The notes beneath the pieces were generated by a model. It was given only the letters and a program-made list of their open reading frames with translations. It did no database searches and was not told the DNA's origin. 64,000 nucleotides of DNA from Blastopirellula sp. J2-11 (lineage in GTDB: Bacteria > Planctomycetota > Planctomycetia > Pirellulales > Pirellulaceae): assembly GCF_024584705.1 (NCBI RefSeq), contig NZ_CP097384.1:3782001-3846000 (forward strand), read 5' to 3'. This document shows, in pieces, positions 18,159 to 33,431 of this stretch (position 1 is the stretch's first letter; each line of letters starts with the position of its first letter). Both the position numbers and the translations under genes were made by a program.

Positions 18159-19580
18159 ATGAGCGACACCCCTCCGCCTGCCCCTGCCGAACGTCTTCCC
18201 CTGCTGCAAGAGATGCGCACCGCCGAAGATTGGTGGGCGATCTGGTTAGGCGCGTTGATTTTGGCGGTCATTTTTTTCTCGGTGCAGATGACATCGACTC
18301 CCGGCGAAGCCGGCGCCGAAGCGACTGTCTCGGCGACCAGTTCGCTGAAGTCGTGGATCGTCAAACCAGGGTCATGGACGAACAACCCTCTCACGGCGTT
18401 TAGCAAAGGGGACCAATCGCTGCTGCCATGCATGATCGCCATCGGCGGCGTCTTGCTGGCGATTTTCGCCGCAGCGCAGGGAATCATGGGAAAGCCGGTC
18501 GCCGGGTTCGCCGCGGCGTTTCCAGTCATCTTCCTGTTGGCTCTGCTCGCATATCTGCTTTCCACGCAAACGGTCATCAAGCATTACAATCTCGAGTATG
18601 CGCTGTGGGCGCTGTTGGTCGGACTAATCATCAGCAATACGATCGGCACGCCGGAGTCCTGGAAGCCGGCGATCAAAACCGAGTTCTATATCAAGACCGG
18701 CCTGGTCTTGCTGGGCGCCGAAGTCTTGTTAGCCAAGTTGTTCGCTCTCTCGGTACCCGGCATCGCAGTCGCTTGGCTCGTCACGCCGATCGTGTTGATC
18801 ACGACTTTCATCTTTGGGCAGAAGATACTGCGAATTGCGTCTCCCTCGCTCAATATGGTGATCTCGGCCGATATGTCGGTCTGCGGCGTTTCAGCGGCGA
18901 TCGCGACCGGCGCCGCTTGTCGCGCAAAGAAAGAAGAGCTTTCGCTGGCGATCGGAATGTCGCTAACGTTTACCGTCATCATGATGGTCGTCCAACCGAT
19001 CTTGATCAAAGCGTTTGCGATTGACGATCTGGTCGGAGGAGCTTGGATCGGCGGCACGATTGATGCGACAGGCGCGGTGGTCGCCGCGGGCAACGCGTTG
19101 GGCGAACGAGCCGAAAAAGTGGCCGTCACCGTTAAGATGATCCAGAACGTGTTGATCGGCGTCGTTGCGTTCGGCGTTGCGCTCTACTGGGTCGCGTTTG
19201 TCGAAAAGACCAAAGATGGAGCCCGCCCCAATGCGATGGAAATCTGGTATCGCTTTCCCAAATTTGTGCTCGGCTTCGTGCTGGCGTCGATTGTCTTTTC
19301 GGCGATCGCCTATTTTGTCACCGCCGGCGATCTACAGGTCAAAGCGACGACCGATCTGTCCAAGGCGCTCCGCGGATGGCTCTTTTGCCTGGCGTTTGTC
19401 AGCATCGGGCTCGAGACTAACTTCCGTGAGCTTGCCGTCTACCTGAAAGGGGGCAAGCCGTTAGTCCTGTACCTTTGCGGTCAGACGCTCAACCTACTGC
19501 TGACCTTGATTATGGCCTACGTCATGTTTGGCTGGCTGTTCCGCGACTACATCGAGAAGATGCTCCGTGGCGCAAGCTAA
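18159..19580 (+). CDS. YeiH family (UPF0324) putative sulfate/anion exporter
   Basis: 473 residues with ten or more membrane segments. Signature stretches of the YeiH/UPF0324 family include [48 protein letters not shown] and the C-terminal [14 protein letters not shown]. The family is annotated as putative sulfate exporters; the true substrate is not proven. It is longer than the E. coli protein because of an extra N-terminal helix and loop (residues 30-90). No Shine-Dalgarno precedes the ATG, only a 16-bp tandem repeat. The small membrane protein at 19567 overlaps its 3' end. Confidence 0.85.
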
Positions 19581-19809: not shown

Positions 19810-20437
19810 ATTTCCCCCTGGAATCACCAATTTTTGTCGCTTGACAAAGCGCACGGACTTGGGGTCGATTACAGGCGGAGAATTAGCCATCCATTCCCGT
19901 TTGCGCGTAGGCCGAATCGGTTAACGAGCCTGGAGATTTTATGCGCTGCTTTCGTTCCGAATCCCAAGATCATGTCATGATTGGGCGGCCCCCCCGCACG
20001 AGACCTCGGAGAGAGGGATTGATGGGGCAGACATTCATCGCCGATTCGACTTCCCATCCGCAGACTCGCCCAGCAAAACCAAAGCGGTCCGGTCCAGTCC
20101 AACCTTTCAAACGAGAAAACAGGGCAGTCCGGTCCAGTCCAACCTTTCGAACGAGAAAACAGGGCGATCCGGTCCAGTCCAACCTTTCGAACGAGAAAAC
20201 GCGGCGGTGCGGTCCCACCGACCATGAACGACTAATTTCTATGCAGGAATGTCTAAAGAAGAACGGAGATCGATGCTGCTCGGTTCTTTCATTCGTCCTT
20301 CGACATAAGACATTTCTCAAGTCCGTTTCCGCTGTGAGGACGACAACGGACGCTGTAGCCTGACGTCAATCGACGATTCGCAAGTTGGCCGGTAGAATAC
20401 AGTTTTGCCCACCCACGTTGATCCTGCGCACAGATCT
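19810..20437. other. Repeat-containing gap before the LarA-like gene
   Basis: About 630 bases without a supported gene. Long open frames on both strands (19941-20363 and 19869-20225) are produced by the 40-bp tandem repeat and encode repetitive non-globular sequence; they are rejected. The word AATGTCTAA near 20249, with ACATAAGACATTT near 20304, is related to the inverted repeat at 10196-10300. The promoter of the LarA-like gene is not evident. Confidence 0.55.
20091..20210. repeat. Three tandem copies of a 40-bp unit
   Basis: Units start at 20091, 20131 and 20171, each beginning GGTCCAGTCCAACCTTTC and containing AACGAGAAAAC. Units one and two differ at three or so positions, and unit three diverges only in its last ten bases (GCGGCGGTGC). 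The next ten bases start as a fourth copy (GGTCCCACCG). There are no unique spacers between the units and no cas genes, so it is a direct tandem repeat and not a CRISPR. Confidence 0.85.
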
Positions 20438-21709
20438 ATGCAATTCCCGAAACTCTTCCGTCTGCGTCAAACCTTCCCGCGCCCTCTGGTGACCGATGTC
20501 ATCGGCGAAGTCGATCGCCAACTCACCATGTTGGAGTTGAGCGAGAAGGTAAAACCAGGCGAAACGGTCGCGATCACTGCGGGCAGCCGCGGCATCGCCA
20601 ACATCAAAGAGATCATTAAAGCGATCGTCGACCATCTGAAGCAGATCGGCGCCAAGCCGTTTATTGTGCCGGCGATGGGGAGCCACGGCGGCGGAACCGC
20701 CGAAGGCCAGATCGGCGTCCTCGCTTCGTACGGAATCACGCCGGAGTACTGCGGATGCGAAATTCGCGCCAGCATGGAGACGATCGTCGTCTGCCAGGCG
20801 AAGGAAGGCTTTCCGGTTCACTTTGACAAGCATGCTTCGCAGGCCGATCACGTCGTCGTTTGCGGTCGGGTGAAAGCGCATACCGATTTCACCGGCGAAA
20901 TCCAAAGCGGTTTGATGAAGATGATGCTGATCGGGCTTGGCAAGCATAACGGCGCCAAGGTCTATCACAAAGCGATCATGGACAACAGCTTTACGCAGAT
21001 TGTGCAAAGCGTCGCCCGCGAAGTGCTGAGCCAATGCAATATCTTGTGCGGACTAGCCATCATTGAAAATGGCTACGACGAAACAGGGCACATCATCGGC
21101 GTGCCAGCCAACGAAATCGAACAGCGCGAGCCGGAACTGCTTCGACTGGCCAACAGCTTGTTGCCGAAACTGCCGTTTGAAGAAGCCGACGTGTTGATTG
21201 TCGATGAGATCGGCAAAAACATCAGCGGCGCCGGCATGGACACCAATATCGTCGGCCGCAAGTTCAATGACCATGCCGCAACCGGCGACGAAACTCCCCG
21301 CGTCAAACGGATTGTCTTGCGCGGCCTGACCGAAGAAACGCACGGCAACGCGTCGGGGATCGGCATGTGCGAGTTCTGTCTAACGCGAATGGTCGAGCAA
21401 ATGGATCGCAACATCACGAACATTAACAGCATCACGTCAGGGCACGTGACGGCGGCGATGATTCCGATCCACTACGACACCGACCGCGAGATCTTGGAAA
21501 ACGCGTTGCAAACCATCGGTCTACGTCCCCCGCACGAAGCTCGCATCATGTGGATCCCCCACACGCTGGCGATCGACGAGGTCGTCTGCAGCGAGGCGTA
21601 TCTGGCCGAAGTAAAATCCCGCAGCGAACTTGAAGCGTTGTTTCAGCCGCTCGAAATGCCCCTGGATAGCGCCGGAATGCTCCCTTCGGTCACCAAGTGG
21701 CTACCGTAA
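20438..21709 (+). CDS. LarA-like (DUF2088) lactate-racemase-domain protein
   Basis: 423 residues. The N-terminal half matches the LarA/DUF2088 fold, with VKPGETVAITAGSRGIANI, AMGSHGGGTAEGQ and CGRVKAHTDFTGEIQSG. LarA itself racemises lactate with a nickel-pincer cofactor, but many relatives have other or unknown substrates, and no larB/C/E genes are seen here. The ATG at 20438 is preferred to a TTG at 20405. The lutABC operon is only 6 kb away, so a lactate link is possible but unproven. Confidence 0.75.
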   Translation: MQFPKLFRLRQTFPRPLVTDVIGEVDRQLTMLELSEKVKPGETVAITAGSRGIANIKEIIKAIVDHLKQIGAKPFIVPAMGSHGGGTAEGQIGVLASYGITPEYCGCEIRASMETIVVCQAKEGFPVHFDKHASQADHVVVCGRVKAHTDFTGEIQSGLMKMMLIGLGKHNGAKVYHKAIMDNSFTQIVQSVAREVLSQCNILCGLAIIENGYDETGHIIGVPANEIEQREPELLRLANSLLPKLPFEEADVLIVDEIGKNISGAGMDTNIVGRKFNDHAATGDETPRVKRIVLRGLTEETHGNASGIGMCEFCLTRMVEQMDRNITNINSITSGHVTAAMIPIHYDTDREILENALQTIGLRPPHEARIMWIPHTLAIDEVVCSEAYLAEVKSRSELEALFQPLEMPLDSAGMLPSVTKWLP

Positions 21710-23155: not shown

Positions 23156-23189
23156 AGAGCGGCGCTGGAATTATTTCCAGCGCCGCTCT
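23156..23189. terminator. Bidirectional terminator between thioredoxin-like gene and bestrophin
   Basis: A perfect 15-bp stem (AGAGCGGCGCTGGAA and complement) with a TTAT loop, followed by CTTTCG. It lies 28 bases past the thioredoxin stop and 17 bases past the end of the minus-strand bestrophin gene, so both transcripts could end here. Confidence 0.85.
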
Positions 23190-23206: not shown

Positions 23207-24184
23207 TTAGCTGCTGAGCGTTGAATTGACCGCGAAGGTTCGAATGGTGTTCGGTTTGCGGATCTCATTGATTTCGATTTCCATATCCCGTTCTTCAAAG
23301 GGAACCATTTTCGGCAGATCCTCCAACGAGGCGAACAAATTGTTTCGGATCATGGTTGAAATGTCGCCAAGCGGTAGATGATTCAAACGGCGATGAGAAA
23401 ACGGATCTTGCAACTCGACCCCAATTTGATCGAGCGACAGCAGCGGGTAAGCGACTAGCAGCGTCATCAACGGAGTAAAGGCGCCGACATAATCGACCAA
23501 GGCCAGCGGCAAAAACGTCAAATAGAGAAATAAGAACCGTCGGATCTTGATAGAGAAGGCCAGCGCTAATGGTGTCGCCAAAATACGCTCACACATGCCG
23601 ATATGATCAATCAGGCGAGCACGTTCTTCTTCGGCTTTGAGAAAATAGAACCGGTCTAGCTGACTATCCTCCACGGCTTGCTTCAGTAGTTCAGCAATGC
23701 GTCGGACGACGTACATCGGCATATGATTGCAGTTGGCCAAGCGTTCTGCTTCGACTCTCCCGACGATTTTCACGAGATCTTTGATCTCATCAAAGCTGAA
23801 TTGCTTGCGTAAACTATGCCGACAAACGGCGGAAAAAGCGGCGACCCAACGCAAATACGATTCGCGCCACTGAGGATCCTGCGGACCGTAGATGACGCCA
23901 ATTTGCCCAAGATTACGAGATTGATTGACAATCCCTCCCCAGACTTTGCGTGCTTCGTACCAGCGGTCGTACCCAGCGTTGGTTCGCAAAACTAACAGCA
24001 GCGCCAGAACGGCGCCGATGTATTCGTAGTGTGAGTTCGCCAAAATGTGGGTCATTCCCAAGTAGGTCATAACCGCCGTGACCACGGCGGCGAACAAGGT
24101 GAAACCCAATAGGCGGCCGATAATCAGCGGAGTCGCTGACCCTCGCAACGTAAAAACTTCGCGCCAAAATTCAAAGCGTGGCAT
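23207..24184 (-). CDS. Bestrophin family anion channel
   Basis: 325 residues of the bestrophin/UPF0187 family, which form pentameric anion channels; eukaryotic members conduct chloride and bicarbonate. Seen: four membrane segments, the early SATPLIIGRLLGFTLFAAV, then LVLRTNAGYDRWYEARKVWG, the family's most conserved stretch, and a C-terminal LQDPFSHRRLNHLPL. It is the last gene of a minus-strand set with carbonic anhydrase, SulP and USP, 55 bases after the USP gene. The context favours bicarbonate as a substrate. Bacterial homologues include cation-selective ones, so selectivity is open. Confidence 0.9.
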   Translation of the reverse strand: MPRFEFWREVFTLRGSATPLIIGRLLGFTLFAAVVTAVMTYLGMTHILANSHYEYIGAVLALLLVLRTNAGYDRWYEARKVWGGIVNQSRNLGQIGVIYGPQDPQWRESYLRWVAAFSAVCRHSLRKQFSFDEIKDLVKIVGRVEAERLANCNHMPMYVVRRIAELLKQAVEDSQLDRFYFLKAEEERARLIDHIGMCERILATPLALAFSIKIRRFLFLYLTFLPLALVDYVGAFTPLMTLLVAYPLLSLDQIGVELQDPFSHRRLNHLPLGDISTMIRNNLFASLEDLPKMVPFEERDMEIEINEIRKPNTIRTFAVNSTLSS

Positions 24185-24239
24185 AGCGAAAAATGCTCCT
24201 CAATCAAGTTTGTTTCTATTGTTGTGATCTCGACATCCC

Positions 24240-25058
24240 CTAGGCGTACGCGTAGATCGTCAATTCCGTATGCTGCAAGATGTCGCTGCCGAGCTGGCCA
24301 AATGGCGAGCCCCACCAACTGCTCGTCCTGGCGACTCCTAGCACCAGTAAATCGGCCTCCCATTTCTGGGCGTATTTCGCCGCAGTTTTCACCGGCGAAC
24401 CGGGCAAACAGCCAACTTCTAACGATTCCATTCGCGATCGGCAGTATTGCAACATCGCGCGATAGGCGCCGCTTTGCGGGCTAGCCGCTTCGCCGACACA
24501 TAGCAACCGATACTGGCTGCCCAGATAGGCGGCATGTTGCGACAAGAATGAACGAATCGAACGGCTTGATGCGTTGGATCCGTCGTAAATCAACAACACG
24601 CGCTCGAGCTGCCTTGGCTTCTGCCGCAGCACAAGCAGCGGGTGCGCACCGCGCTGCGCCAACTCCATCAACTCATGGGCAGATAGCCCCACATCATGAC
24701 GATGCGGGTTTCCACCGTAAGAAACAATCGTCAAATCATTGTATTTCGCTTCATCAGCGAGCAATTCGATCGGATCGCCACGAACGTCCAACACATCACA
24801 GTGGACTCGACTTCTTCGACAAACGCTGAGAAACTCCTCACGCGATTGCATCTGGCGACGATGCGCCAGAGTCATTCGAGTCGCTTCGACCCCAGCATAG
24901 GCCGCTGACTCGATCGCCGCCTTCTCAAAAAACGTACGCGTATCCAAGATCGAGACGCCGCGAATCCTCGCCTGGGCGACGCTCGCTAATTTCACCGCCG
25001 TTTCAACCACAGATTTCGTGCGACTTGAATTACAAAGATGTACTAACAGATTCTTCAT
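24240..25058 (-). CDS. Universal stress protein, tandem-domain
   Basis: 272 residues with two USP-like halves. The first half begins MKNLLVHLCNSS and has the loop LTIVSYGGNPHRHDVGLSAH; the second begins VLLIYDGSNAS and ends with DLLVLGVARTSSWWGSPFGQ, close to the ATP-binding pattern G-2x-G-9x-G(S/T) but degenerate. The ATG at 25058 is chosen because the preceding 15 codons are not conserved-looking. It lies between sulP and the bestrophin gene, 68 and 55 bases away, and may act as a nucleotide- or stress-responsive regulator of those transporters. That role is inferred from position only. Confidence 0.85.
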   Translation of the reverse strand: MKNLLVHLCNSSRTKSVVETAVKLASVAQARIRGVSILDTRTFFEKAAIESAAYAGVEATRMTLAHRRQMQSREEFLSVCRRSRVHCDVLDVRGDPIELLADEAKYNDLTIVSYGGNPHRHDVGLSAHELMELAQRGAHPLLVLRQKPRQLERVLLIYDGSNASSRSIRSFLSQHAAYLGSQYRLLCVGEAASPQSGAYRAMLQYCRSRMESLEVGCLPGSPVKTAAKYAQKWEADLLVLGVARTSSWWGSPFGQLGSDILQHTELTIYAYA

Positions 25059-25126
25059 CACAGAAACGCCTCTATTTCGAATCAAGAATATATTTGCAGA
25101 CAATCGGTCAAAAATTGAATCAACGC

Positions 25127-26767
25127 TTACTTCGACCGAAGCGATTCTTCGATCGTGCGCTGGTCTGCGCCGCTAGATTCTCGGGGCGATTCTCCCCTTG
25201 GTTTTTCGACGTACCGATCATGAAAACGAGCCGCAAGTCCATCCCAGTCGATCACCAAGCTTCCGCCTGACGCTTCATGCTGCTTCTCCCAAGACATCAG
25301 CAAATCGAGACAGGCATGATCGATGTAGTTCAGTTGCTCGAAATTGACATGCAATTCGACGTTGCCTGGGATTTGCTCCAGCTCCGAAGCCAACGCCGGC
25401 AATCGCATGAACGTCGCGGTTCCGATCAGTCGCAAAGTCAACTTGCCTGAAGCGGGATCTCCCTCGCGACGTATTTCTAAGCGAGAGAAGACGTACAACA
25501 ACTTGCAAGCGGCTAATACGATTCCGGTGACGACGCCGATTAACAAATCGGTCGCGACAATCGTGACCATCGTGGCGAAATAGATGAAGACCTCGCTCTT
25601 TCCATACTTGGCCAATTCGCGAATCGAAGCGGGATTCACCAGCTTATACCCGGTATAAACCAACACGGCCGCCAAACTGGCGACGGGAATTTGCTTCAAC
25701 AAGAAGGGGAGAAACGCCACAAACAAGAGCAGCCAGCCCCCGTGCATGATCGCGGACCAGCGCGACTTTGCGCCTGCCGAAACGTTGGCGGCGCTCCTCA
25801 CGATCACCCCGGTCAACGGCAATCCGCCGATTAGCCCGCAGACCGAATTGCCCAAACCCTGCGCCATCAACTCACGATCGTAGTTGGTGCGTTCCCCTTC
25901 ATGCATTTGATCCACTGCGGTGGCGCACAAGAGCGTCTCCGCACTAGCGATCAAGGCGACGCCGGCGGCCGCCATTAGAATCTCAACAATTGGCGCTGAC
26001 ATCCACATGCCGAGATCGGGAAAGACAAAACTGCTGAAAAAGCTCGCTGGAATGCTCGCTTCCAGCCGCTTAATCGGAACGTCGAATAATTCGGAGAACA
26101 ACGTCGCCAACACGACGCCAAGCAACGGACCAGGGATCAGCTGTAATTTTTTCGGCGCCATTTTCCAGAGCACGATCACCGCAATGGTGAACAAGCCAAG
26201 TCCCGCCGCAAGATGGTGCGACTTCGATTCGTCAAATGCAAATACGCGGCCAATCGCCTGGGGAATCGTCAGCAGATTCGCCAAGCCGGCTTCCAAATGA
26301 ACGCCGCCGATCACCAACTCTTTCCGCGGCTGATCGTCGATCATGATGTGAAACTGACTGCAAAAAATCAGCACGCCGATTCCGGCCAGCATCCCCTTCA
26401 CCACCGCCGGTGAAACTGCGCGAAACCACTGCCCCAGTTTCAAGAAGCCGGCGACAATTTGCATCAAACCCGCCACCACGATCACCAGCATCACAAGCTT
26501 GATGTCAAATTTCTCGAACAAGCTATAGACCAGCACCGTTAGACCGGCTGCGGGGCCGCTGACCTGCAGCGGAGCGCCTGCAAAAAAGCCGACGACCAGA
26601 CCGCCCACGATACCGGAAATGAGTCCAGCCGCCGGGGGCGCTCCCGACGCGATCGCGATGCCGAGACAAAGGGGAAGTGCGACTAGAAATACGACAATCG
26701 ATGGGAAGACGTCATTTCTGATCGTCTCCCAACAAAAAAATGGAGGACCACTGGATTTGTCGGACAT
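25127..26767 (-). CDS. SulP family anion (bicarbonate/sulfate) transporter with STAS domain
   Basis: 546 residues. A membrane domain of 10-14 helices opens with DVFPSIVVFLVALPLCLGIA and GAPPAAGLISGIVGG, and contains QVSGPAAGLTVLV and the GLIGGLPLTGVIVRSAAN block. The cytoplasmic STAS domain follows at about residues 420-520 (VELHVNFEQLNYIDHACLDL). The sequence type is that of SulP proteins which pair with or are fused to carbonic anhydrase, and BicA-like sodium/bicarbonate uptake is the best guess. The gene follows the carbonic anhydrase gene by 57 bases on the same strand. Sulfate transport remains possible. Confidence 0.9.
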   Translation of the reverse strand: MSDKSSGPPFFCWETIRNDVFPSIVVFLVALPLCLGIAIASGAPPAAGLISGIVGGLVVGFFAGAPLQVSGPAAGLTVLVYSLFEKFDIKLVMLVIVVAGLMQIVAGFLKLGQWFRAVSPAVVKGMLAGIGVLIFCSQFHIMIDDQPRKELVIGGVHLEAGLANLLTIPQAIGRVFAFDESKSHHLAAGLGLFTIAVIVLWKMAPKKLQLIPGPLLGVVLATLFSELFDVPIKRLEASIPASFFSSFVFPDLGMWMSAPIVEILMAAAGVALIASAETLLCATAVDQMHEGERTNYDRELMAQGLGNSVCGLIGGLPLTGVIVRSAANVSAGAKSRWSAIMHGGWLLLFVAFLPFLLKQIPVASLAAVLVYTGYKLVNPASIRELAKYGKSEVFIYFATMVTIVATDLLIGVVTGIVLAACKLLYVFSRLEIRREGDPASGKLTLRLIGTATFMRLPALASELEQIPGNVELHVNFEQLNYIDHACLDLLMSWEKQHEASGGSLVIDWDGLAARFHDRYVEKPRGESPRESSGADQRTIEESLRSK

Positions 26768-26824
26768 TGAATCTGCCTTATCGCGATGTTATTTGGAAAC
26801 CAGGAAAAGCGTCAGACTCGGCCA

Positions 26825-27481
26825 TTACGCAAAACCCGATGTCGAGTCATTGATCTCGCTAAACGCCGCATCGCTCAGCGGCACAAACGCATCTTTCTCG
26901 CAATCAAGCATTTCCACTTTTCCCGATCCAATGTCGTACGCCCAGCCATGCAACTGAACCTGATCGTTGGATAACGCATCGGCGACGCAGCGCAACGCTT
27001 GCAGGTTTTCCAATTGCATTCGGACATTCTCCTGGATGACCAGTTCCAACATCCGCTCTGGCGACTGCTCGCCATGGCGCTGCAAAGTTCGCTGCGCCAA
27101 TCCATCCGCGTTTTGCAACCACGCGGCGACAGCCGGAAGTTGGTCACACGACCCTGTTTGAAGAATTGCATTCATCGCGCCGCACTGAGAGTGCCCGCAA
27201 ACGACGATATCCTGAACACGAAGCGCTTTGATCGCATACTCGATCGTCGCCGCTTCTCCACTCGCTTGACCATGTCGCGGAATCAGATTTCCCGCGTTCC
27301 GCAACACAAAGAGATCTCCGGGATCGCTGCGTGTTATCAAGTTGGGGTCGATTCGCGAGTCAGAGCAAGTAATAAACAGCGTCTGCGGCGACTGCCCGTG
27401 GGCAAGTTCTTCAAACAAAGACTGTTTGTGCCGATAGTCTGAGTTCTGAAATTGAGATAGTCCGCTGATCAGTTTCTGCAT
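26825..27481 (-). CDS. can: Beta-carbonic anhydrase
   Basis: About 218 residues from ATG 27481. It interconverts CO2 and bicarbonate in the cytoplasm. The zinc ligands are Cys39 and Asp41 (CSDSR), His97 and Cys100 (CGHSQCGAM), with the usual NAGN and ATIEYA motifs. It is the first gene of the minus-strand set can-sulP-usp-bestrophin. An upstream start at 27511 (ten more residues) is possible. No signal peptide is present, so it would act inside, next to the SulP transporter. Confidence 0.94.
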   Translation of the reverse strand: MQKLISGLSQFQNSDYRHKQSLFEELAHGQSPQTLFITCSDSRIDPNLITRSDPGDLFVLRNAGNLIPRHGQASGEAATIEYAIKALRVQDIVVCGHSQCGAMNAILQTGSCDQLPAVAAWLQNADGLAQRTLQRHGEQSPERMLELVIQENVRMQLENLQALRCVADALSNDQVQLHGWAYDIGSGKVEMLDCEKDAFVPLSDAAFSEINDSTSGFA

Positions 27482-27684: not shown

Positions 27685-27996
27685 TTAAATGCGCAGCGCC
27701 GCGCCGATCCCGTTCCAAGCGCTTCGTTCGGCACGAATACCGCTGAATGCCGCCCGAGAAATACGACCAGGCAGTGGAGCCGACAGAAAATCGGCAGAAC
27801 GATCGTCAGCAGTGATCTTAGGACGAAATTCGACCGAAACGATTTGCCCCAGCAGCACGACCTCCACTTCTCGCGAAGTTTCCGTCTCCTGCTCAGCAAG
27901 CGACCGCGGAGGCGAGATCGTCCCCACCAACATCGCAAACATCATGAATAGAAAAGGAGCAATTGGCAAAGGCGATCGGCGATTGATTCGTCTCAT
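27685..27996 (-). CDS. Small secreted protein of unknown function
   Basis: 103 residues. AAGGGAG sits six bases before the ATG at 27996, the best ribosome binding site nearby. A basic start (MRRINRR) and hydrophobic core (IAPFLFMMFAMLVGTI) form a signal peptide. The mature part is about 70 residues with VEVVLLGQIVSVEFRPKIT and no cysteine. No family recognised. It lies on the same strand as the carbonic anhydrase gene, 203 bases upstream, and may be cotranscribed. Confidence 0.6.
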   Translation of the reverse strand: MRRINRRSPLPIAPFLFMMFAMLVGTISPPRSLAEQETETSREVEVVLLGQIVSVEFRPKITADDRSADFLSAPLPGRISRAAFSGIRAERSAWNGIGAALRI

Positions 27997-28219
27997 TGCG
28001 CTCCCTTCTTTTTTATGTTAGAGATCGGACAAAATGGCGAACCAGCAAAAGATTCCGCCAAGATGACGTATTCCAACTTTACGTTCGACGGCGTAGTTAA
28101 GTCAAGTCTGCTTTCTTCTCCCCTGATCGGAGAGAATGCGGCGCAACCTGAATAATATCAAGTGATTTCGGCGATACTTCACTACGCATGAAATCTTGCC
28201 GCGGCTTTTTTTCTCGGCA

Positions 28220-28261
28220 TAAAAAAAGCTTGCCTTCAGGCGACGCGTCGCTGAAGGCAAG
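28220..28261 (-). terminator. Terminator of the Cys-rich secreted protein gene (minus strand)
   Basis: Read on the minus strand, GCTTGCCTTCAGCGAC pairs with its complement (one bulged base) and is followed by seven T. It begins 30 bases after the stop at 28291. It separates the porin and Cys-rich protein genes from the small secreted protein and the carbonic anhydrase set. Confidence 0.88.
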
Positions 28262-28290
28262 CCGATCTAAAACTGGAGGTGATGCTATGG

Positions 28291-28827
28291 CTATTGAGCA
28301 GCCGGCAGGAGCACCGGGACAACATACCCGCTCGGCAGAATGTCGTACTGCGGAACCGCTCCCGCGCTCACCGGCGGGACCATCGGCGGAATCGGCGGAT
28401 CGCCCGCAGGCAGTTGAACATCGACCGGAGCGCTGCTGCAGGGAACGCATGATTTGAGGCACGTTCGGATCCACTCAAATTTCGGTACCGAAACTTTGTA
28501 CTCGTTTCGCCACAATTGATTGACGGTGCGAACCTTACCGCACTTCACCAGCGGCGGTTCACATCCGCAGCAATCTGATTTTTCCCAAGGAAAGCGAACC
28601 GGCGGGATTTCGATCTGCTTGCAGCGCGTCGTCCAGCAATGCTCTGTTTCTTCTTCGCACGACTTCTTCAGCAGGTAGGGGGCGCACTCCCAACAGGGAT
28701 GCTCACAGCAGCAGTTGCCATGAATGGTTGGCCTGCCGCATCCGCCCACCATCGCTTCGCCGCTATGGGCGATGTTCGCACACAGCGCCAATCCGGCCAA
28801 CAAAAAGTAGATTGCAATCCGTCGCAT
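28291..28827 (-). CDS. Secreted cysteine-rich protein
   Basis: 178 residues. Signal peptide (IAIYFLLAGLALCANIAHS), then a Cys-rich segment with CCCEHPCWEC, DCCGCEPPLVKC and CLKSCVPC, and a Pro-rich tail (PPIPPMVPPVS). About 20 cysteines are present. The segment WRNEYKVSVPKFEWIRTC resembles one repeat of planctomycete Val/Cys-rich surface proteins, so a wall or envelope role is plausible. AAGGA is eight bases before the ATG at 28827, better than the ATG at 28836. It is 51 bases downstream of the porin gene and has its own terminator. Confidence 0.72.
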   Translation of the reverse strand: MRRIAIYFLLAGLALCANIAHSGEAMVGGCGRPTIHGNCCCEHPCWECAPYLLKKSCEEETEHCWTTRCKQIEIPPVRFPWEKSDCCGCEPPLVKCGKVRTVNQLWRNEYKVSVPKFEWIRTCLKSCVPCSSAPVDVQLPAGDPPIPPMVPPVSAGAVPQYDILPSGYVVPVLLPAAQ

Positions 28828-28878
28828 AGTATTCATCCTTCTATCTTTCGCCGAGGCGTTTGTTTTGATTCATCTGGT

Positions 28879-30459
28879 TTAGAAATCGACCATAAAGCGA
28901 CAACCCATGATCCAGAAGTTGCCTCCCGTGTAGCCGCCCACCGGCCTGTGCTCACTGATGTCGCCGTAGATCGCGTTGAACTGCATCTTCGAGTGCGAAG
29001 TCCACAGCCAGTTCAAACCTAGCGTCGCGTTGGTCTCAACGCCGCCCTGAATGTTATCGTCGGTTAGATCCAAGTACGAGATACGTGCAGCGACTTGCCA
29101 GGCGCCCCAACCGGTTCCAAAGTTGCCGTTGCAATCAGGAACCAGAAAGAAATTCTCAAACGGCTTCACGCGAGAGAGCGTGCTGCTTTTGCGATCGTAC
29201 GCCATGTGCTCGCCGGTCAGAAAGTATGCGGCTTGCAAATAACCGCCATGGAAATTGACGTCGCTCATGCCGTTGTCACGCTGCAGCCAGGTCGCCTGAT
29301 ACTCGCCGCAGAAATTCCAGGCGCCCACATTCAGCATTGATTCCAACGCGAACACTTCGTACCAATCGGCTCCCGCAATAGCGCCGGTGTCGATCCAGCG
29401 ACTGCTTGAACGCGCTTCAGGACGCGTACGAAAGCGTCCTTGATTGGAGTGCGGCGTTGTCGCCAATACATCACCATCAGGATTGGCCACCATACCGGCG
29501 ATCGCCCAGTGGTAATAACCACGTCCTCCCGATGAATCGTCATACCATGGGCTGCTCGCCAAGCGAGCGTTGCCGCTTCCTTGAAACGCATCGCCGAGAT
29601 AGGTTCCGGTGCCGGACACGTTTTCCATATTGAAAATGCCGTAGCGCCAGTTGTAGACCAGATCGTCTGAGTAGCTGTAGCCGCATAACCCGAGACGACG
29701 CGCATCTTCGTTGAACGCTTCCACCACCAGCGGCCGTTCCATAAAAATGTTGAACCGCGAACTGTTTAACGCGTCTAAACCAAGCGGACGCTTTTGATTA
29801 CCCAGCAGCACGGTCGTATTGCCTGGCAGTTCGTCCCAGCCAATGTAAACATCCTTGATCGCAGGATCATTGGGATCAGCGAAGTCAACCTGAATGCGCC
29901 ACAGCATCGTTTCAAAAGCATCACCGCTCGTTTCCAAGCGGACGCGTCGAAACGCCCAGCGATTTTCCGGGTCATTGCCGGTCGCCGGATTTTCAAAGAA
30001 GCCGATCCCCGGCGTATTACTAGGAAAGTCCCAAGTGTCAAAGTGAACGCGACCGCCGATCTTGAACGTTGGTTTCGTCGGCGGGACGTATTCTTCCGCT
30101 ACCTTCGCGAGTTGAGCGCCTTGAACGGTCTGGGCCGCTTCCAGCCGTTCGATTCGTTCCATCAAATGCCCGACGTTCGTCATCGGCACATTTTGAATGT
30201 TTTGCATGTTCGGCATCGCGCCAGTCGGCGCCGGCGGCGCCGATAGGCCAGGTTGCAACGGTGCGTCTAGCTGATCAATTCGCCGCTCCAACTCCATTAG
30301 CCGTCGGCTGAATTCATCTTGCGGTGCAACATACAGCTCGGTGGTATAGCTACTGAAGGACGTCTCCTGAGCCAAAGCCGGCGCGGAGAAATGCGTAGCT
30401 CCGAACAGCAAAAGCCCCGCTGCAACCGTGCTAGCAATTCTTTTTGGTAACATCGTCAT
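28879..30459 (-). CDS. OprO/OprP-like outer membrane porin
   Basis: About 526 residues. Signal peptide (VAAGLLLFGATHFSAPALAQ), a coiled-coil segment (residues 40-70, LMELERRIDQLD, and 95-120, LMERIERLEAAQ) typical of porin anchors, then a beta-barrel with alternating strands such as KIGGRVHFDTWDF, RWAFRRVRLETSGD and LLGNQKRPLGLDALNSSRF, ending in Phe (FMVDF) as expected for BAM-inserted barrels. The family includes phosphate- and pyrophosphate-selective channels. It is upstream of the Cys-rich protein and carbonic anhydrase genes. Three close ATGs (30468, 30459, 30453) make the exact start uncertain. Confidence 0.85.
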   Translation of the reverse strand: MTMLPKRIASTVAAGLLLFGATHFSAPALAQETSFSSYTTELYVAPQDEFSRRLMELERRIDQLDAPLQPGLSAPPAPTGAMPNMQNIQNVPMTNVGHLMERIERLEAAQTVQGAQLAKVAEEYVPPTKPTFKIGGRVHFDTWDFPSNTPGIGFFENPATGNDPENRWAFRRVRLETSGDAFETMLWRIQVDFADPNDPAIKDVYIGWDELPGNTTVLLGNQKRPLGLDALNSSRFNIFMERPLVVEAFNEDARRLGLCGYSYSDDLVYNWRYGIFNMENVSGTGTYLGDAFQGSGNARLASSPWYDDSSGGRGYYHWAIAGMVANPDGDVLATTPHSNQGRFRTRPEARSSSRWIDTGAIAGADWYEVFALESMLNVGAWNFCGEYQATWLQRDNGMSDVNFHGGYLQAAYFLTGEHMAYDRKSSTLSRVKPFENFFLVPDCNGNFGTGWGAWQVAARISYLDLTDDNIQGGVETNATLGLNWLWTSHSKMQFNAIYGDISEHRPVGGYTGGNFWIMGCRFMVDF

Positions 30460-30581
30460 TTCAGCCATCCGTGACACACGAAGTAGAACAATCAATTTCG
30501 TCATGTCGCGATCATCGGGAAGAGCCCGCATAATCAAATATTAAGATTGCACGATTGATAGTCGCGCCGCCTGTGACGATT

Positions 30582-31417: not shown

Positions 31418-31822
31418 TTACTTCGAAGCCCAGTAATCGATGACGAACGCTTCTTCCAAATGGGGAAGCAATAGTTCGACAAATTCTTTGTGCGCCGGGT
31501 GCGGCAGATAGGCTTCGCGATCCGCTTCGCTTTTGAAGGTCACCAGAAAGCAGTGCGTAAAGCCTTTATCAAGCATCTCGGGGCTGTTATTCGTGCCCCA
31601 TTCAAAATCAGCGATCTGCGAAATCTTGCCTGGCAACGCGGCGAACGCTTCCTCAACCATCTTCTGATCCGAAGGCTTCACCCCTTCTTTGAACTTGAAA
31701 ATCACGACATGCCGCAACAACTTCTCCGGCTTGGCCGCGTCATCGGCAAACGAACGCGTATTCATGGCGACCACCATAACCGCCAGCAAGGCGAAAATCG
31801 AATAACAGAAGACGCGATTCAT
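31418..31822 (-). CDS. Secreted Dabb (stress-responsive A/B barrel) domain protein
   Basis: 134 residues. A signal peptide (YSIFALLAVMVVAMNTRSFA) precedes a Dabb domain of about 95 residues, starting LLRHVVIFKFKEGV and ending with ADREAYLPHPAHKEF. Dabb folds form dimeric ferredoxin-like barrels; several act on aromatic substrates, many are uncharacterised, and export is a planctomycete habit. AGAGA lies before the ATG at 31822. Neighbours on the same strand are the DASS transporter and an SDR. Confidence 0.82.
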   Translation of the reverse strand: MNRVFCYSIFALLAVMVVAMNTRSFADDAAKPEKLLRHVVIFKFKEGVKPSDQKMVEEAFAALPGKISQIADFEWGTNNSPEMLDKGFTHCFLVTFKSEADREAYLPHPAHKEFVELLLPHLEEAFVIDYWASK

Positions 31823-31922
31823 GATGAATTCTCTCAGCAAGGGTAGGTATGTCCAATGCAGTTGGCCCTCTCTAGGATACCAACGCGCCGCCCCCGCGAC
31901 AAATTGGCCCCCGGAAGAGCGG

Positions 31923-33431
31923 CTACATCTTCAACGAATGGAACACGAGCGGCCCGATCGTCGAAATCACCAGTACAATCAGCGCCAGCGACACCAGGTT
32001 CAACACGAACCCGGCCTTGATCATCTGCCGCATGGTCACCCGACCAGAGCTGTAGACGATCGCATTAGGGGGAGTCGCCACCGGCATCATAAAAGCGCAA
32101 CTCGCGGCCAGCGTGGAGGGAATCAACAGCAACAGCGGGCTGACCTGCAACTCATCGGCCGTGCTGGCCAAAATGGGATTCAGCATCTGCACGCTCGCCA
32201 AATTTGAGGTCAGTTCAGTCAGGCAAATCATTCCGCTGGCGGTCAGCGCCGCCATGACGATCGGCGACAAGCCTGTCATCATGCCGGCAAGTCGTTCCCC
32301 CAAAAAGCGATCGAGTCCGGTTTCGTGCAATCCGCCGGCGAGCGCTACGCCGCCGCCAAACAGCAATAGCACTCCCCAAGGAATTCGGACGGTTGACTGC
32401 CAATGCAGCAAACGACTGCCATCTTCTTTTCCGCTGGGCAAATAGAAACAAAGCAGCGCCATGAGAATCGCGGCTGTGCCGTCATCCGCATATTTGCTCT
32501 GCAACAAAGGCCCCCATCCCCAGCCTTCGGTCGGCTCGCGCAAGATCCAGAGCAGCGCCGTGACAAGAAAGATTCCTCCGACGCGCCATTCCGCCGCCGA
32601 CATCGCCCCCAGCTTGTCCAGCTCATCACGGATCACTTCTCGTCCGCCGACCGAAGCTTCGGAACCGCACGGAAAAATCCAGTAAGTCATCGCTCCCCAA
32701 CAAATGCCGAGAAACATCAGCGTGAAGGGAAGCGCAAGGATCATCCAACTCAAAAAGCTGACGTATTCGCCATCGGGATATTCCTTGGCGTAAAAGCTGG
32801 CGAACGCGACGTTGGGCGGCGTACCAATAATCGTTGCGACTCCGCCGATGCTCGCCGCATAGGCGATTCCTAACATCAGCGCAGCCCCCAGATTAATTCG
32901 CCGCTCTAGCGACATCTGACCGGCGTCAACGCGCGTCAAAATGCTCGCCGCAATCGGCAGCATCAACAACGCGGTCGCCGTGTTTGAGATCCACATCGAA
33001 AGGGCCGCCGTCGCGATCATGAAACCTAGCACAATCCGCCGCGGCTGATCTCCCATCGCGTAGACGATCGACAGGGCGATGCGGCGGTGCAGTCCGCTTT
33101 CTTCCACCGCCAACGCGATCAAAAATCCCCCCAAGAAGAGAAAGATAAATCGACTGCCGTAGCTGGCTGAGACATCGGCCATCGATTGAATGCCCAACAA
33201 CGGCATCAGCGCCAGAGGAACCAGCGCCGTCGCCGCAATCGGCAACGCTTCGGTCAGCCACCAAACCGCCATCAGCGCAGCGACGGCCGCCATGTAGTTC
33301 AGCTGAGGGTCCTCTGGGTGCAATTGCCACCCGAGACTTGGCCCGGCGACCAACGTGATCGCGATCGCCAATCCAAGCCAGCGACCGACCATCGGGATCC
33401 GGCCTGTTCCTTCCGTAGATTGCGTGCTCAT
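31923..33431 (-). CDS. DASS/SLC13 family sodium-coupled dicarboxylate (or sulfate) symporter
   Basis: 502 residues with about eleven or twelve membrane helices. Family marks are AVWWLTEALPIAATALVPL at the N-terminus, MWISNTATALLMLPIA (the SNT motif) and the second repeat LTSNLASVQMLNPI with MPVATPPNAIVYSSG. It would import succinate, malate or a related anion with sodium. The start lies nine bases after the stop of the lectin-like protein gene, so both are likely on one transcript with the Dabb and SDR genes downstream. Confidence 0.9.
   Translation of the reverse strand: MSTQSTEGTGRIPMVGRWLGLAIAITLVAGPSLGWQLHPEDPQLNYMAAVAALMAVWWLTEALPIAATALVPLALMPLLGIQSMADVSASYGSRFIFLFLGGFLIALAVEESGLHRRIALSIVYAMGDQPRRIVLGFMIATAALSMWISNTATALLMLPIAASILTRVDAGQMSLERRINLGAALMLGIAYAASIGGVATIIGTPPNVAFASFYAKEYPDGEYVSFLSWMILALPFTLMFLGICWGAMTYWIFPCGSEASVGGREVIRDELDKLGAMSAAEWRVGGIFLVTALLWILREPTEGWGWGPLLQSKYADDGTAAILMALLCFYLPSGKEDGSRLLHWQSTVRIPWGVLLLFGGGVALAGGLHETGLDRFLGERLAGMMTGLSPIVMAALTASGMICLTELTSNLASVQMLNPILASTADELQVSPLLLLIPSTLAASCAFMMPVATPPNAIVYSSGRVTMRQMIKAGFVLNLVSLALIVLVISTIGPLVFHSLKM

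Follow-up and report, generated by a model that had tools for sequence, protein, structure and literature searches.

The pairing of a beta-carbonic anhydrase (CA) gene with a gene of the SulP transporter family is known and has already been published for the can2-sulP genes of A. ferrooxidans. According to the available part of that report (PMC6458275), clade C sulP genes are always juxtaposed or fused to can2 while those of other clades are fused to STAS, and the can2-sulP transcripts drop as CO2 rises. Besides bicarbonate transport, its authors also considered proton homeostasis. The best studied bacterial bestrophin, KpBest, is described in two reports as a Na+ channel (PMC8496536) which is opened by ATP (PMC6081419). 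The three neck residues of this channel are IIF, and those of the animal anion channels are IFF (PMC8496536).

Here we describe a locus in which members of these families stand side by side. The window, i.e. the whole stretch of 64,000 nucleotides that was analysed, is part of the complete 6.43 Mb genome (G000) of a marine planctomycete of the genus Blastopirellula, whose SulP is 94% identical to the SulP of Blastopirellula marina DSM 3645. At 23207-27481 on the minus strand of the window, a CA, a SulP, a divergent tandem universal stress protein (USP) and a bestrophin form one tight row (Table 1). Taking the shorter starts of the CA and the USP, which lie at about the same start point in several orthologues, the intergenic gaps are 57 bases (CA/SulP), 68 bases (SulP/USP) and 55 bases (USP/bestrophin). 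This layout had been given by a sequence-only reading of the window and is confirmed by the ORF coordinates and by Pfam, where all four proteins score above the curated cut-off. In the three other genomes of the genus the four genes have 63-95% identity, which shows that they are not chance ORFs.

The same reading had placed a shared terminator 3' of the bestrophin gene. The hairpin itself is real, as a 61-base stretch folds with -37.2 kcal/mol and 0 of 200 shuffles were equally good. Its role as a terminator is presumed, since it has no T tract, is absent from the terminator-scan output and lies between convergent genes. An RNA element was rejected too, as the window contains no tRNA and nothing in it reaches the gathering score of an Rfam family. 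A defence function was rejected, as PADLOC gave no match for the four proteins.

Table 1. Positions in the window of the four genes, the hairpin at their 3' end and the genes upstream.
Feature	Position	Strand	Remarks
Beta-carbonic anhydrase	26825..27481	-	218 aa; longer ORF start 27511
SulP-family transporter with C-terminal STAS domain	25127..26767	-	546 aa
Divergent tandem universal stress protein (USP)	24240..25058	-	272 aa; longer ORF start 25103
Bestrophin	23207..24184	-	325 aa
Hairpin 3' of bestrophin, possible bidirectional terminator	23156..23189	-	fold z -6.6; no T tract
Small protein, secreted-like start (by eye)	27685..27996	-	103 aa; no Pfam match; 61-98% identity in G001-G003
Cys-rich protein, secreted-like start (by eye)	28291..28836	-	181 aa; no Pfam match; adjoins porin
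PF07396 (OprO/P) porin	28879..30537	-	Porin_O_P 139 bits

The CA, one of three beta-CA matches in the source genome, scores 162 bits with Pro_CA, above the curated Pfam cut-off. By eye its translation contains CSDSR and GHSQCG, which we take to be the zinc-site motifs. The nearest solved relative is 5swc_A (E 1.4e-54), presumably the cyanobacterial CcaA.

Outside the genus, 32 of the 35 listed SulP matches above 278 bits were compared, and at 21 of these 32 loci a CA adjoins the window-type SulP, once as a CA-SulP fusion. The CA is absent at the other 11 loci; in three of them a contig end cuts the locus short. A further nine SulP loci, all scoring above 420 bits, include eight with a neighbouring CA and one without (L172). 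Around the SulP of the 10 Nitrospira-type and Melainabacteria loci, no CA was seen within 3 kb; among them, the Nitrospira relatives (L032-L037, L040-L042) possess a close homologue of the window SulP. The same genomes often encode related SulP-CA fusions, in which a single long frame holds both matches. One genome (G079; L115 7505-9793, L039 9284-11572) carries both fusion orders side by side: first a CA fused N-terminally to SulP and STAS, then another SulP frame that has its CA at the C-terminus.

The SulP itself scores 207.5 bits with Sulfate_transp and 33.3 bits with STAS_2 (cut-off 29.2) in Pfam. It stays far below the NCBIfam cut-offs of BicA (NF050096; 134.8 against 880 bits), DauA (169.4 against 614 bits) and sulP (164.2 against 380 bits), and BicA membership was rejected on this score. 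Judged on domain content alone, the presence of STAS_2 also sets it apart from clade C without STAS as defined in the available part of the can2-sulP report (PMC6458275). Many of the outgroup SulPs (L016-L030) carry about 100 or more extra residues near the position of window-SulP residues 172-182, which the window SulP does not have.

The SulP could be a transporter of sulfate or another anion, with the CA and the bestrophin placed next to it for regulatory convenience. It is the single match of its kind in its genome at E <= 1e-20, and no CysW-type sulfate permease was found above the cut-off in this genome. The best CysW candidate reaches 153.3 of the required 329.1 bits and sits between ORFs reading like ModA and an ABC ATPase, so the SulP may be needed for sulfate. 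However, a DASS-family symporter 5 kb away (TIGR00785, above cut-off) could take sulfate, and a CA beside or fused to the SulP at most related loci, including the N-terminal CA-SulP fusion, argues against this explanation. We consider the sulfate explanation very doubtful. Besides the SulP, two anion-transporter-like genes are found nearby, at 18159-19580 (Cons_hypoth698, YeiH-like, under the NCBIfam cut-off) and at 31923-33431 (DASS-family symporter). The gene at 20405-21709 scores above the NCBIfam cut-off of NPN_iso_grp_22, the nickel pincer cofactor-dependent isomerase group 22 (523.9 against 400 bits).

The USP scores 41.7 bits with Usp (Pfam: PF00582; cut-off 24), with the best stretch in its C-terminal half. 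This half aligns with a canonical USP of the same genome at an hhalign E-value of 1.3e-6, and the N-terminal half aligns weakly (E 0.02). The usual nucleotide-binding loop of USPs has the pattern G-x2-G-x9-G-[ST]. It is present by eye in two of three USPs of the same genome which were compared (L093 and L095), and it is absent in all 15 orthologues of the window USP and in all 30 sequences of a wider set.

To place the USP among its relatives we searched 296 genomes of the order, of which 76 had a match at E <= 1e-6. Strong orthologues (E ~1e-40 or better) are found in 16 genomes, spanning the genera g1, g43 and g53 plus one genus each in the families f2 and f3, and in 14 of these 16 a bestrophin gene lies directly downstream. 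Outside the genus, 10 of 12 strong USPs are directly upstream of a bestrophin gene; the two exceptions (G138, G154) stand without a bestrophin. The next 14 weaker USP relatives have no bestrophin within ~1.5 kb. In the bestrophin tree, those next to a USP (13 rows) fall into a single clade, supported at 100/99. In one genome (G292), a USP frame with one in-frame TGA stands beside an intact bestrophin (L126).

As a partner of the SulP, the USP was rejected, because among 20 USP rows tested the two lie within 6 kb only in the four genomes of the genus (SulP matches listed). These neighbourhoods group the USP with the bestrophin, as its probable partner, and not with the SulP. The USP-bestrophin pair is apparently undescribed: no description was found in the literature searched, with subscription journals mostly outside its coverage. 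The sequence-only reading did not know the four-gene combination as a described operon, but its can-sulP half had already been published (PMC6458275).

The bestrophin is one of four bestrophin matches in the source genome and scores 221.3 bits with Bestrophin_2 (Pfam: PF25539; cut-off 27). Its PDB relatives are KpBest chains, with E-values of about 1e-27. In the alignment, its neck carries A58, L62 and L66, which is neither the KpBest nor the animal pattern, so ion selectivity cannot be read from the sequence. To call the protein a bicarbonate channel is unproven, given that the studied bacterial homologue KpBest conducts Na+ (PMC8496536). As KpBest is opened by ATP (PMC6081419), a partner linked to nucleotides is conceivable, but all 15 USP orthologues lack the usual nucleotide loop.

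Apart from the USP, planctomycete bestrophins have a second recurrent neighbour. Of 67 bestrophin loci from planctomycetes outside the genus, nine have a beta-CA gene directly beside the bestrophin gene. Six of the nine belong to the 41 loci found at order level and three to the 26 found at phylum level, with two of the 26 under the family cut-off. A rough estimate with two CA genes per ~5000 predicts ~0.05 such neighbours in 67 loci. These counts leave out ten listed bestrophin matches from other genera, a number of which are fragments, and four small fragment rows. Four of the nine CAs were confirmed by Pfam and four more (at L063, L068, L070 and L075) by a CA profile built here; the ninth is the CA end of a fusion beside L205 and is supported by Pfam through L224.

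In a tree of 77 bestrophins, the CA-neighbour label is scattered with 8 changes, of which 7 are forced by well supported branches. This tree left out 6 of the 26 phylum-level rows, three because they were near-copies and the others as fragments or weak matches. The label is no more clustered than in shuffles (153 of 500 as low), and the count of changes fits repeated gains as well as repeated losses. In a distant family, one genome (G429) has a CA, a SulP-CA fusion and a bestrophin in a row on one strand. The tight row in the window, where a bestrophin and its USP stand with a CA and a SulP, suggests that some bacterial bestrophins may take part in inorganic-carbon handling.

The order CA, SulP, USP and bestrophin is kept in all four genomes of the genus. 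The flanking genes are kept there too, and the whole neighbourhood being syntenic, the genus-level order is weak evidence and was rejected as independent support. Outside the genus Blastopirellula the full order was not found among the genomes searched. One of the genus genomes (G001) has a bestrophin gene split by a single in-frame TAA (L074 7260-8300), either a real loss or an assembly error, and this interrupted gene was left out of the trees. Outside the genus, one genome (G045) has both pairs unlinked, with USP-bestrophin on contig C84 and CA-SulP-porin on contig C80. With the pairs unlinked there and separate elsewhere, the window joins two pairs; judged by gene order, the four-gene row splits into two pre-existing pairs, CA-SulP and USP-bestrophin.

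The two pairs might be functionally unrelated and joined by a chance rearrangement in one genus. The genus-wide synteny would explain the conservation there, and SulP and bestrophin are indeed seldom neighbours elsewhere: among 98 genomes, with SulP matches listed, a single genome outside the genus (G009) has them within 6 kb. CA-bestrophin neighbours, however, recur at the nine loci described above, and the row in the distant family brings CA, SulP-CA and bestrophin together again. We regard a chance joining of unrelated pairs as improbable.

Upstream of the CA lie the genes of a small protein, a Cys-rich protein and an OprO/P-like porin. A PF07396 porin is found within 6 kb of the SulP in 13 of 98 genomes, nine of them outside the genus, where uniform gene placement would predict 0.4 (SulP matches listed, with no gene counted again for a second segment). 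CA, SulP and porin follow each other in this order on one strand in all eight g43 genomes searched. Relatives of the Cys-rich protein adjoin the porin in other genera as well (L088 11202-11741, L089 and L148). For another small protein, at 31418-31840 and upstream of the porin, a relative likewise stands next to CA-SulP in G045 (L088 5468-5995).

A T-tailed hairpin within 28215-28275 follows the Cys-rich gene. Together with the distance of ~200 bases that separates the CA from the 103-aa gene, it suggests that the four genes are a unit of their own. A common transcript of the porin and the Cys-rich gene with the four genes was rejected for this hairpin, and the two genes probably form a separate transcript. 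The earlier suggestion that the porin may belong to the system is backed by its proximity to the SulP.

We put at roughly 0.5 the probability that in this row two pre-existing gene pairs have been combined into an inorganic-carbon and pH module. In such a module, small anions would cross the outer membrane via the porin, the SulP would exchange or import bicarbonate across the inner membrane, and the cytoplasmic CA would equilibrate it with CO2. The bestrophin would be a gated ion channel or leak passing bicarbonate, or chloride as a counter-ion, for charge and pH balance, and the tandem USP, as its dedicated partner, would set its gating or level. Gene content, order and recurrence are observed; from them we infer the substrates, selectivity, direction and gating. 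A bicarbonate-handling or pH system, as first proposed, is the best reading given the CA-SulP and CA-bestrophin neighbours, with the stress-sensor part of that proposal unproven.

The RuBisCO large subunit (Pfam: PF00016) was not found in the Blastopirellula genome; of 14 control genomes, 5 contain it. The carbon would thus serve ordinary carboxylases, or the module would serve pH balance, rather than a carboxysome-type CO2-concentrating mechanism.

The same gene links and the RuBisCO result would also fit pH homeostasis or CO2 disposal, in which the CA hydrates respiratory CO2 and bicarbonate leaves via the SulP and/or the bestrophin with no uptake. Proton homeostasis was, as noted, considered for can2-sulP in the available text (PMC6458275). 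The direction of flow is not fixed by gene data, and the porin link fits uptake at least as well. We consider this alternative rather unlikely.

A more specific reading goes further. It holds that the tandem USP is a dedicated regulator of a bacterial bestrophin and also that planctomycete bestrophins are bicarbonate-permeable channels working with CA, giving a channel-plus-transporter inorganic-carbon module in heterotrophs. As a whole we consider this tentative and rather doubtful. If it is true, inorganic-carbon toolkits, described mainly for autotrophs, extend to organisms without RuBisCO. The recurrent CA neighbours and the conserved USP partner make it testable whether the bestrophin passes bicarbonate and whether the USP gates it.

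Several described systems resemble parts of this row. BicA of cyanobacteria (6ki1), a SulP-type bicarbonate transporter, belongs to the same superfamily as the window SulP and aligns with it over most of the membrane part. Besides the score of 134.8 bits against the BicA cut-off of 880, the two differ in the alignment (IDALLT versus AETLLC) at a stretch which we take to be the Na+ site of BicA. KpBest of Klebsiella pneumoniae (4wd8) is of the same family as the window bestrophin, which aligns with it over residues 5-284. It differs in the neck, with I, I and F (PMC8496536) against A, L and L in the window protein, and the window bestrophin has a partner USP gene.

The bestrophins BST1-3 of Chlamydomonas are comparable in that they are proposed to serve inorganic-carbon supply. 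They are thylakoid proteins of an alga with RuBisCO, and in the available part of the source their bicarbonate transport itself is said to need confirmation (PMC10096703). The closest likeness in gene order is to A. ferrooxidans can2-sulP and to SulP-CA fusions such as Rv3273, with a beta-CA directly upstream of a SulP and a predicted bicarbonate transport (PMC6458275). As far as the accessible text describes them, the two parts are otherwise the same as here, the A. ferrooxidans host is autotrophic, and the CA-linked clade C SulPs have no STAS link, whereas the window SulP has both STAS_2 and a CA neighbour. Unlike can2-sulP, the row in the window continues with a USP and a bestrophin.
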